In this document: positions 31,263-34,295 of the stretch, one piece after another | How the letters are laid out: every line of letters begins with the position of its first letter | Numbering within the stretch: the first letter of the stretch is position 1 | DNA from: Anaerolineales bacterium | GTDB taxonomy: Bacteria > Chloroflexota > Anaerolineae > Anaerolineales > Anaerolineaceae | Reading direction: 5' to 3' | DNA length: 34,295 nucleotides | Assembly: GCA_020060485.1 (NCBI GenBank) | Contig: JAGVAB010000093.1 | Location: 1 to 34,295, forward strand | Program-made: the position numbers and the translations under genes | Notes under the pieces: generated by a model | Seen by the model: only the letters and a program-made list of their open reading frames with translations | Told to the model about the DNA's origin: nothing | Database searches by the model: none

Positions 31263-31387
31263 GGAGGGCAAACACCGCGAGGCGGAAGCCGTTGTTGTTG
31301 TTCCTGTTGTTCGGGTGGTTGTTGTTGTTGCGGTTGGCGACGCGTGCGTTCCTGTAATTGTTGTTCCACGACCCGCCGCGCAAAGCC
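31263..31387 (-). repeat. DGR template repeat (TR)
   Basis: The 125-bp TR begins 27 bp after the RT-Avd stop. On the coding strand it holds 15 AAC or AAT codons, 30 target adenines in all. These codons give broad amino-acid choice when A is mutated and cannot become stops by A changes alone. It matches the VR (32906-33027) with an exact 22-bp 5' end and an exact 30-bp GC-rich 3' end, the latter being the likely IMH*-type region. One CAC codon has no partner in the VR. An Asn-rich reading frame through the TR is a by-product, not a gene. Confidence 0.96.
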
Positions 31388-31414
31388 CTGTGACCTCTGC
31401 CCAATACGCAGGCC

Positions 31415-32794
31415 CTAAGACCTGTGCATCCATGCCCCCAAAAGCCGCCCCATTTCCACTGTCATGCGGGCAGCGTGTTCATATTGCCCAATGGTCATCA
31501 GCTCCTGCTCATGCGCAAATCGCAGCCAGAAGCGAAGCTGTTCAAGAACGATATCGGCCTTCCGCAACCAGATTTGCCTTTCTTCGCCGGTGGATTTTCC
31601 CGCCCAAACCAGGCTGTCCTGAAAATCCATGCCCTGCCGCTGAATGCGTTCGCTCAGCGTGAAGCGATACGTCCGCGGGAATTTTTGCATCTGCGGCAGC
31701 AACCATTTCAAAAAATCGTGTGTGCGTACAAACAATGGCGATTCGTTCATGCCCGCCTCACCGCCGGAACTACAAAATCCAGCATGCTGCGCCGCAGACC
31801 AATTGACCCATCCCCTCACACTTGCCTGCAAGTAGGTGTGGTTTTCTGCACAGTCGCCGGCTGCTGCCACCATCCGCCGCAGCTTGCGCCGGTAGCTTAC
31901 TACCTTGCGGCGTTTTACCCGCCGGTGATCGGGATACACCCGGAAACCCAGAAACGGGATGCCATCCTTAACCGCATTCACCCGTGCGCTCTCTGTGTGC
32001 AGCGTCAGGCGCAGAGCTGCCATTTTCTCCTGTACCGCGGTCAGCCAGTCCAGAAGTTCACGAGGAGAATCTGAAAACAGCAGGAAGTCATCCACATAGC
32101 GCAAGTAGGCGGGACAATGCAGTTCCCGTTTCACGAACTGGTCAAAGCCATTCAAATAGATATTCGCCCAGAATTGGGAAGTCAAATTGCCGATCGGCAG
32201 CCCGCGCGGGCGGTTTGCGGCAAACAGATCATCCCCGGGAAAATAGACCATCTGGTATTCTTCACTTAAAACCCCCTGCCCGCTTGCCAGAACCTGATCG
32301 CAAAGCCACAGCAGATCGTCGTCACGGATCAGGCGGGCAAACTCGCTCCGCAAGATGGCCAGATCAATGCTGGGAAAGAACTGGCGCACATCACACTGCA
32401 GGAAATAACCATAGCGGCGGGCATAAGTTGTGGTGCGGTCCAGGGCGCGGTGCGTGCCCTTGCCCACCCGGTTGGCATAGCTGTCATGGATGAAGCGCGG
32501 CTCCCAGACCGGCTCCATCACCTGGCACAAGGCGTGGTGAACAACCCTGTCCCGGAAGGGCGCCGCAGAGATCAATCGCCGCTTGGGCTCGTGAATGGTA
32601 AAACTGTGATAGCTTCCCGGGCTGTACATTTTTTCGCACAGTTCCTGCTGGATTTGCAGCAGTTCTTCCTCCTGCTGCCGTTCAAAACCCGCCACACCGG
32701 GCTTGCTGCGCTTGCCTTTGCGCGCCCGGCGGTAAGCCGTGTACAGGTTTTCAAAATTCCACACCTGCGGGTACAGATTGCGGTACGTTTTCAT
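31415..32794 (-). CDS. DGR reverse transcriptase with in-frame C-terminal Avd domain
   Basis: The 459-residue protein starts at the ATG at 32794, preceded by AAAGGAGG; a longer frame upstream (to 33076) runs through the VR and is not used. RT motifs are the catalytic D135 in CDVRQFFPSID, the DGR-type motif GLPIGNLTSQ (198-207) and Y233-V-D-D236. Residues ~349-457 match Avd, the helical-bundle accessory protein that binds RT and template RNA (FLKWLLPQMQKFPRTYRF, then LRFAHEQELMTIGQYEHA and GRLLGAW). Avd is normally a separate protein. M349 has its own GAGG five bases upstream. Near 31801 the frame seems to have shifted: the alternate frame gives GLRRSMLDFVVPAVRRA and a TGA overlapping the Avd ATG. 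Confidence 0.95.
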   Translation of the reverse strand: MKTYRNLYPQVWNFENLYTAYRRARKGKRSKPGVAGFERQQEEELLQIQQELCEKMYSPGSYHSFTIHEPKRRLISAAPFRDRVVHHALCQVMEPVWEPRFIHDSYANRVGKGTHRALDRTTTYARRYGYFLQCDVRQFFPSIDLAILRSEFARLIRDDDLLWLCDQVLASGQGVLSEEYQMVYFPGDDLFAANRPRGLPIGNLTSQFWANIYLNGFDQFVKRELHCPAYLRYVDDFLLFSDSPRELLDWLTAVQEKMAALRLTLHTESARVNAVKDGIPFLGFRVYPDHRRVKRRKVVSYRRKLRRMVAAAGDCAENHTYLQASVRGWVNWSAAQHAGFCSSGGEAGMNESPLFVRTHDFLKWLLPQMQKFPRTYRFTLSERIQRQGMDFQDSLVWAGKSTGEERQIWLRKADIVLEQLRFWLRFAHEQELMTIGQYEHAARMTVEMGRLLGAWMHRS

Positions 32795-32831
32795 AAGCCT
32801 CCTTTCGTAAATACCAAAACTGAAAAATTTG

Positions 32832-32852
32832 CGCGCCCGCTTCGCGGGCGCG
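32832..32852 (-). promoter_or_regulatory. GC-rich hairpin between target gene and RT
   Basis: CGCGCCCGC (32832-32840) pairs perfectly with GCGGGCGCG (32844-32852) around TTC. On the transcribed strand it is followed by CAAATTTTTCA, so it can act as a terminator of the target gene. It also lies 54 bp downstream of the VR end; many DGRs have a hairpin just after the VR that raises retrohoming efficiency, usually closer. Both readings are possible. Confidence 0.6.
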
Positions 32853-32853
32853 G

Positions 32854-32890
32854 CAGAAAGCAGAAAACAGAAAAACAGAAAAACAGAAAA
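32854..32890. repeat. Short tandem repeat, five CAGAAA(A)-type units
   Basis: Five units of CAGAAAG, CAGAAAA or CAGAAAAA follow each other between the hairpin and the VR. On the coding strand this is a pyrimidine-rich tract (TTTTCTG units) directly after the target stop codon. It could result from slippage and has no known role. Confidence 0.7.
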
Positions 32891-32897
32891 CAACTGC

Positions 32898-34295
32898 TTA
32901 ATGGGGGAGGGCAAACACCGCGAGGCGGAAGCCGTAGTTGATGACCCTGTAGCGCGGGTTGTAGTTGCGGCGGGAGGCGACGCGTGCGCTCCTGTAATTG
33001 AAGTACCACGACCCGCCGCGCAAAGCCAGAAAATTGTGATCCGTGTCCCGGAAGTTCGCCTGCCACTCCCACACATTGCCGCTCAGGTCCATCACGCCAT
33101 GCGGCTGGCTCTCGCCCTGCGGGTACATCCACACCGGCGTGGTGCGCCCTATCCCGCTTTCTTCCGTGTTGGCATGGCGCACGATCTCCTTCTGCGGGTC
33201 ACTCAATTGTCCCCAGGCATACCGCTCACCTTCCTCGCCGCCCGCCGCCTGCACCCACTCCGCCTCGGTCGGCAGGCGCAGTTGCACCCCGCCCGGCTCC
33301 AGTCCAATTGCGTTCAGGGCTGCCCATTCCGCCTGTTCCCCGTGCGCCGCCAGCCATTTGCAGTAGGCGTTGGCCTCATACCAACTGATGCCCACCACCG
33401 GCGCATTGCGCCGCCCGACCCCGAAGCGGGCGTCCCCCCAATATCTGGGCAGCACCTTGCGCCGTTCATCCAGGTTCTTATGCAGCCAGTCAACCCCCTT
33501 GCGTCCCCAATTCCCCACTCCCGCATAGTCCTTCTGCGGCTCGGCAAAGGCCGGAAAATCCAGCCAATACTTCTCCTCTGCAAAGTCTTCCGCATCCAGG
33601 AAGCGCGCATACTGCCCGTTGGTCACCGGGTAGCGCGCCAGCCAGAATTCGGGTGCGTCTTTGCCCGGGATGGGCACGAAGCTGTGCAGGTCATCGGGCT
33701 CGTAGCCCAGTTCGTCAGCCAGGCTGGCTAATTCTGCCCTTATGCGCGGATCGGGAAGCGGGGTAACAGCAAGTGCTTTCAATTGCGCAAAAATACGCTC
33801 GGCAGAAGGTGCTGCCTTGCTCGGAAAGGCGCTTTGATATAAAACCAGTAATTCACCGGCAAGCCAGATCATACGGGCTTGCTCTTCTTCGTTTTTTGTC
33901 ACACCGGTATCAGCAAGGGCATCCAACAAAGCCGACATGGTCGGACGCTGGGGAGAACCAAAACAAAGGTGCTCTCCCAAAAGTTTGATTGATTCATGCC
34001 AGCGGTCGCTTTTTCCTACCAGTTTGTAAACATATTCATCAGGATCAATATCTGACAAATACCGCGCAGCCAGATATTCCTCAAATGTCAGATGCGGAAA
34101 CGTATATACTTTTCGGGAAGGCTTTCCAGACGTGGAAATCGTACCCTGGAGCATCAAGAGTCCATTGGCGCTCTGGCAATATTCCAGAAACGTTTCAACC
34201 TTTTCCCGATCCTGCAGGTAAACCTTCAAAACGCCATCCAGCAAATCCTCTGTCACCAGAGCTGTTTCACTGCTCTTGCGCTGATTTCCTTGTAA
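32898..34295 (-). CDS. DGR target protein: NACHT-like C-terminal part plus FGE-sulfatase (C-type-lectin-fold) domain, partial
   Basis: The frame is open to the right edge (LQGNQRKSSETAL precedes the GTG at 34256), so the N-terminus is missing. Near the visible start, YTFPHLTFEEYLAARYL matches the conserved helix at the C-terminal end of NACHT/STAND NTPase modules. A helical linker follows. From FVPIPGKDAPEFWLARYPVT on is an FGE-sulfatase domain, with RLPTEAEWVQAA, MDLSGNVWEW and LRGGSW. The last ~40 residues are the VR, ending in GFRLAVFALPH, which in this fold forms an exposed ligand-binding surface. The NTPase core would be outside the window. I infer a receptor whose tip is diversified; the ligand is unknown. 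Confidence 0.92.
   Translation of the reverse strand, partial: LQGNQRKSSETALVTEDLLDGVLKVYLQDREKVETFLEYCQSANGLLMLQGTISTSGKPSRKVYTFPHLTFEEYLAARYLSDIDPDEYVYKLVGKSDRWHESIKLLGEHLCFGSPQRPTMSALLDALADTGVTKNEEEQARMIWLAGELLVLYQSAFPSKAAPSAERIFAQLKALAVTPLPDPRIRAELASLADELGYEPDDLHSFVPIPGKDAPEFWLARYPVTNGQYARFLDAEDFAEEKYWLDFPAFAEPQKDYAGVGNWGRKGVDWLHKNLDERRKVLPRYWGDARFGVGRRNAPVVGISWYEANAYCKWLAAHGEQAEWAALNAIGLEPGGVQLRLPTEAEWVQAAGGEEGERYAWGQLSDPQKEIVRHANTEESGIGRTTPVWMYPQGESQPHGVMDLSGNVWEWQANFRDTDHNFLALRGGSWYFNYRSARVASRRNYNPRYRVINYGFRLAVFALPH
32906..33027 (-). repeat. DGR variable repeat (VR)
   Basis: The 122-bp VR encodes the last part of the target protein, ending six bases before its stop codon. Compared with the TR, 11 of the 15 Asn codons are changed (to Y, F, S, S, R, Y, R, Y, V, I, Y). 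The 16 substitutions all hit TR-strand adenines. The final 30 bp are identical to the TR and hold the likely IMH. One TR codon (CAC) is absent. Confidence 0.96.

Follow-up and report, generated by a model that had tools for sequence, protein, structure and literature searches.

An Anaerolineae-type diversity-generating retroelement with an adenine-only repeat signature and a probably disabled reverse transcriptase

Introduction

Does a diversity-generating retroelement (DGR) whose repeats carry an unblemished mutagenic signature still possess the enzyme to extend it? The question is raised by a locus at the end of a 34,295-nucleotide stretch of DNA from an Anaerolineales bacterium (GenBank assembly GCA_020060485.1, contig JAGVAB010000093.1, positions 1–34,295), referred to below as the window. 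Here a template repeat (TR) and a variable repeat (VR) lie on either side of a reverse transcriptase (RT) gene that reads on into Avd. The differences between the repeats fall on adenines of the TR, and past activity of the element is very likely. However, the RT gene lacks 23 nt relative to a nearly identical RT, and this loss, which fuses RT to Avd, has probably disabled the element, and recently.

Adenine-specific differences between the repeats

Aligned on the minus (coding) strand, the TR (31263–31387) and the VR (32906–33027) can be compared over 122 bases and show 16 substitutions and a single 3-nt gap; the initial annotation of the window had reported this alignment, and a renewed nucleotide alignment reproduced it. 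All 16 substitutions lie at adenines of the TR (nine A to T, four A to G and three A to C), as had been claimed. Adenine accounts for 34 of the 122 compared TR bases, and the hypergeometric probability of all 16 falling on it is 5.4e-11. Extension of the alignment to 31257 and 32900 gives 18 of 18 differences at adenine over 128 bases (P = 4.7e-12), both of the added differences being A to C. The gap has four equally good best placements, and the next-best placements yield 19 substitutions over the extended alignment, 18 at adenine and one elsewhere, so that the finding of adenine only depends on the placing of a single codon. Read from this alignment, differences confined to adenine are the mark that mutagenic retrohoming left in the past, and the annotated view of a DGR that has been active is borne out, by the 16 of 16, for past activity. 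Chance similarity of the two repeats was also considered and is ruled out by the position of all 16 substitutions at adenine.

The gap itself concerns the history of the repeats. Between ARV and P, seven codons are present in the VRs of the window and of four homologous targets (P0121–P0124) and eight in the TR of the window; in the relatives described below, 14 of the 15 TRs read have seven codons in this interval, while L058 has eight in both TR and VR. Probably the TR gained a codon after the last writing of the VR at this place, or the VR lost one. Because the TR is one codon longer, the VR was not last written in full from the present TR, or one of the two has changed since.

Reverse transcriptase, Avd and a probable deletion

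The order on the minus strand is target gene with the VR at its end, hairpin, RT-Avd open reading frame (ORF) and TR. The features, all on this strand, are as follows.

32898–34295, minus strand: gene of the target (variable protein), of which 465 codons are in view, assigned from a Pfam match and an alignment to the target of locus L056
32906–33027, minus strand: VR, at the end of the target gene; similarity to the TR extends to 32900
32906–32933, minus strand: 28-nt adenine-free block, identical to the 3' part of the TR, placed like an initiation of mutagenic homing (IMH) site and named by analogy
32832–32852, minus strand: hairpin with a 9-bp stem and a 3-nt loop, starting 48 nt past the end of the VR as set at 32900
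31415–32794, minus strand: single RT-Avd ORF of 459 codons plus stop, comprising RT (residues 1–331), 17 out-of-frame residues (332–348) and Avd (residues 349–459)
31801–31802, minus strand: junction that lacks 23 nt relative to P0001 (eight codons reduced to one base), P0001 being known as a protein only
31415–31750, minus strand: Avd part, which keeps its own ATG (31750); this ATG overlaps the stop codon of the original RT frame
31263–31387, minus strand: TR, one codon longer than the VR; similarity extends to 31257
31100–31256, minus strand: likely spacer RNA region 3' of the TR, of putative function; the best-kept piece is 31176–31224

An RT with the motifs GLPIGNLTSQ and YVDD had been annotated between the repeats, and both were located, at residues 198–207 and 233–236 of the ORF, within an RVT_1 match to residues 71–286. 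The same frame continues into Avd (bAvd, PF22296; E = 3.4e-19 over residues 357–457, model positions 6–105 of 107), and NF033474 matches the Avd part with 85.1 bits (cut-off 80).

The reference for the RT is P0001, a protein of 386 residues encoded on a 3657-base contig from a JGI metagenome and 96% identical over 73% of the window ORF. Its closest solved relative by sequence is a DGR RT (8ub7; E = 9.4e-49), and the top five Foldseek matches are DGR RT structures for the P0001 model and the window model alike. P0001 ends in GWVNHVAHGDTYGLRRSMLDFVVPAVRQA; the window instead has GWVN, one base and then GLRRSMLDFVVPAVRRA in another frame, its RT gene being 23 nt shorter. In the GLRRSMLDFVVPAVRRA frame the old RT tail is intact at 16 of 17 residues and its stop overlaps the Avd start; the open frame passes through the 17 out-of-frame residues into Avd. 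Because the tail is so well preserved in its other frame, the loss would be a recent one.

The segment concerned is highly conserved. A motif W-x2-H/Y-x4-D/N/Q-S/T-x2-L/V occurs in the last 80 residues of all 120 homologues taken as the best of 8000 scored, 111 of which carry a stricter form of it; sought in the window RT, the motif is absent. Residues Trp359, Gly370 and Leu371 of P0001 are invariant among 33 aligned RTs, and in the P0001 model the affected segment closes helix 346–364 and makes helix 369–375. In the window model the junction (residues 333–360) is below a predicted local distance difference test (pLDDT) value of 50, and the Avd part is of low to middling confidence. Modelling was based on alignment A3, without separate Avd rows, since alignment A1 had placed such rows within the RT.

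The RT is thus not complete to its conserved C-terminus, and the complete DGR core described in the initial annotation is doubtful: the RT is 23 nt short relative to P0001, its C-terminal motif is gone and its frame continues into Avd. Among the observations that the annotation had named as telling against its own reading was a broken RT, and this part probably applies, given the loss of the 23 nt and of the motif. Avd in the ORF of the RT, the absence of the RT C-terminal motif, the position of the 5' part of the target outside the window and the greater length of the TR by one codon had all been missed.

Target protein and noncoding elements

An FGE-sulfatase domain (PF03781; E = 5.9e-39), of C-type-lectin type, reaches the C-terminus of the target, in agreement with the earlier statement that the VR forms the C-terminus of a gene with a C-type-lectin fold, the fold being predicted from sequence. 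The stretch ahead of the FGE domain bears the motif FPHLTFEEYLAA, as in NACHT-FGE relatives, and the visible part of the target shares 43% identity with the NACHT-FGE protein of L056 in an alignment of 438 columns that covers the region before FGE. No Pfam match to NACHT was found within the 465 visible residues; the target frame is open up to the window end and the 5' portion of the gene lies beyond it. When the targets of six relatives were scanned, FGE was found in all six and NACHT above the Pfam cut-off in five, with L057 just below it. The target is predicted to be a NACHT-FGE protein, a STAND-type sensor.

The closest target homologue found, P0121, is 76% identical to the window target. 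Between the two, none of 14 residues agree at adenine-type codons, as against 15 of 22 at the other VR codons and 350 of 451 over all other aligned residues (Fisher P = 1.7e-9 for the latter versus the adenine-type codons). For P0122, P0123 and P0124 the agreements at adenine-type codons number 0, 2 and 2 of 14, versus 279 of 440, 266 of 418 and 233 of 444 elsewhere. For this comparison the TR was mapped onto the VR with one TR codon omitted by hand, and P0121–P0124 are other, more distant proteins whose TRs do not enter the comparison. The result establishes divergence at those codons where it would be expected, not present activity.

The 28 identical bases shared by TR and VR (31263–31290 and 32906–32933) are free of adenine on the coding strand and have IMH-like placement. 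The score of the hairpin after the VR was reached by none of 200 mononucleotide shuffles; at the 1% level a hairpin follows the VR in 26 of 36 loci, the window included, versus the TR in nine of 36. The stretch 3' of the TR also has counterparts detectable by blastn, in L057 (65% over 181 columns, E = 1.6e-12) and in L056 (78% over 49 columns, E = 8.5e-8).

Elsewhere in the window, two groups of transporter genes (1972–5431 and 9689–14153, both on the minus strand) were recognized by eye from the list of ORFs, one phosphonate/phosphate ABC-like and the other sugar ABC-like, near a LacI-like regulator and galactose genes.

Related loci

The relatives comprise four contigs of Anaerolineae or Anaerolineales metagenome-assembled genomes (MAGs) and 48 genome places (40 + 8). 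Since L094 and L004 are one locus, these 52 rows represent 51 distinct loci; they were chosen mostly from the top RT matches with enough flank, not at random. With two loci in which no Avd was found and two with Avd only on the other strand left aside, 47 distinct loci have Avd on the strand of the RT, and in none of them does the RT continue into Avd. A combined test for the C-terminal and two other motifs is passed by 46 of the 52 rows, and the six misses still show the C-terminal motif in their tails.

TR-VR pairs of the relatives were accepted only with at least 75% of mismatches at adenine. Such pairs were detected in 36 of 44 rows of the first set (no pair in eight) and in five of eight rows of the second (no pair in three); over 36 loci, 591 of 623 mismatches are at adenine, a figure conditioned on the acceptance threshold. 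Among the 36 relatives in which a pair was detected in the first set, 19 have RT, Avd and TR one after another in a single orientation, 17 of them with the VR upstream of the RT as in the window; so do all five with a pair in the second set. The idea that it is exceptional for the TR to come after RT and Avd was rejected on these counts.

Of 396 genomes in the class to which the Anaerolineales MAG G004 belongs, 79 have an RT match at E <= 1e-80. A search of plasmids gave one weak RT match, in one record, and a search of viral contigs gave none. Among proteins of fused size, 42 candidates contained no match to the fused part, although this search is weak in that the window's own protein was not returned either. 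The existence of an RT-Avd fusion family was rejected on the basis of this search together with the absence of a fusion from the 47 loci.

Several relatives show peculiarities of their own. In L108 (G405:C16:64000-72500, reverse strand; 642–4967 on the strand of the RT) a single open frame of 1441 codons spans the NACHT-FGE target, a VR whose length seems to differ by 19 nt from that of the TR, and then the RT gene; this is a second locus in which an indel joins neighbouring frames, there target and RT. The TR-VR alignments of L002, L070 and L072 have gaps of 1 or 2 nt, and the target frame ends early in L002 and L070 and is split in L072; these are likely to be broken targets or assembly errors. 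In L074 (G082:C136) the TR-VR pair is inverted, with the TR on the strand opposite the RT and target. L062 and L065 each have one TR and two VRs in two FGE targets that flank RT and Avd, with 92–100% of mismatches at adenine for each. L087, L088 and L091 have a copy of Avd that lies on the strand opposite the RT and overlaps, or directly adjoins, the beginning of the RT gene.

Interpretation and alternative explanations

Judged by its parts, namely adenine-type TR-VR differences, an adjoining DGR-type RT, Avd, an FGE-type target and an IMH-like end with a hairpin, the locus is a DGR, and the window holds a damaged or altered member of this class rather than a non-member. The probable explanation is a recently disabled element, in which the 23-nt loss fuses RT to Avd and has likely stopped the DGR. 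In the ancestor, RT and Avd would have copied the TR RNA from its 3' spacer, misreading adenines, and the complementary DNA would have replaced the VR, altering residues of the FGE/C-type-lectin-type domain in a STAND-type sensor. The 23-nt loss would take away the end of the RT thumb and, if no other RT in the genome acts in trans, would leave the VR frozen.

Several observations weigh against this explanation. Among the 79 genomes with an RT match, 25 list two or more RT places, so that another RT might act in trans. Avd is intact and retains its own ATG. Differences of 3 or 6 nt between TR and VR also occur in L060, L064, L081 and L110, all of which have separate RTs, and a length difference alone is therefore no sign of a dead element. 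In the P0001 model the pLDDT stays under 50 from residue 369 onward, which makes the weight of the very tail of the RT uncertain. Finally, the deletion may be an assembly error, the comparison RT being known only as a protein.

If the deletion were such an error, or an artefact of a strain mixture, the organism would carry an ordinary, perhaps still active DGR in which RT and Avd are separate. An unfused RT at 96% identity exists in a public metagenome, the lost tail persists almost unchanged in its other frame, and the search among proteins of fused size returned no counterpart. However, the remaining RT, Avd and target frames are open, and a clean loss of 23 nt is atypical of homopolymer error; an artefact is regarded as rather unlikely, though it deserves to be kept in mind. 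The fusion could, alternatively, be functional, the DGR remaining active with one RT-Avd chain and perhaps a free Avd from the internal ATG at 31750, an outcome that appears distinctly unlikely. The fused frame stays open for 459 codons, its Avd domain is complete and the GLPIGNLTSQ and YVDD motifs are intact, but the motif that was lost is universal among the 120 best-scoring homologues, no fusion occurs in the 47 relatives, the junction is poorly defined in the model and the TR exceeds the VR by a codon. That the Avd domain would replace the lost end of the RT thumb in a working, natural single-chain mutagenic RT, with free Avd from an internal start, is likewise doubtful. A duplication, by chance or by ordinary means, that produced TR and VR without any DGR is hardly credible: nothing was found in its favour, and against it stand the restriction of the 16 substitutions to adenine, the adjoining RT, Avd, FGE target and hairpin, and the recurrence of this anatomy, with adenine-biased pairs, in 36 of 44 and five of eight rows of relatives.

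The locus extends the known DGRs by one of Anaerolineae type whose target is predicted to be a NACHT-FGE sensor, and its perfect adenine-only pattern speaks for past rather than present activity, since the same locus has a likely inactivating change in the RT. If the deletion is real, the locus offers a natural experiment on the time for which a VR remains frozen once its DGR has ceased to act; should the fusion work, the locus would be a natural single-chain RT-Avd.

Comparison with known systems

Published systems are described here according to excerpts of the cited papers. In multicellular bacteria, including filamentous Chloroflexi, STAND/NACHT proteins that carry FGE domains have been reported as targets of diversification by DGRs (Dore et al., 2024; PMC10907252), and an antigen-sensing or anti-phage role has been proposed for such targets, untested there by the paper's own words. 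The NACHT-FGE target arrangement is thus already published, and this kind of DGR is common, as the 79 genomes with an RT match show. The window has in common with the clade 5 cellular DGRs of the same paper (PMC10907252) the RT, TR, VR and FGE-type VR domain, its relatives having targets that combine NACHT and FGE; it differs from them in having RT and Avd in one frame and in that the NACHT part predicted for its target would lie beyond the window end.

The closest loci with all parts in view, L056 and L057 of Anaerolineae, share with the window the order target/VR, RT, Avd, TR, as well as the stretch after the TR, and their FGE parts are 50% and 52% identical to that of the window. In both, unlike in the window, the RT closes with the conserved motif and has a stop of its own ahead of Avd, and TR and VR are of equal length. 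P0001 has an upstream translated leader that resembles that of the window, but it keeps the C-terminal motif and the protein ends there.

A phage system for comparison is the DGR of Bordetella phage BPP-1. It resembles the window in its RT fold, Avd, adenine-specific changes and a hairpin after the VR (PMC3240598, PMC12875486). The order is avd-TR-brt in BPP-1, whereas in the window the TR follows RT-Avd; cassette order varies among DGRs, with 122 patterns among 948 (PMC6642488). The hairpin of the phage group lies 4–34 bp after the VR and has a 4-nt GRNA loop (PMC3240598), in contrast to 48 nt and a 3-nt loop in the window; in BPP-1 the VR hairpin is required for efficient homing (PMC3240598). 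In Escherichia coli, inactivation of the RT, Avd or TR of the BPP-1 DGR brought repair down to about 1e-9 (PMC12875486). The BPP-1 spacer RNA recruits RT and Avd (PMC12875486), and the stretch after the TR in the window would fit, by analogy, a spacer RNA of this kind.

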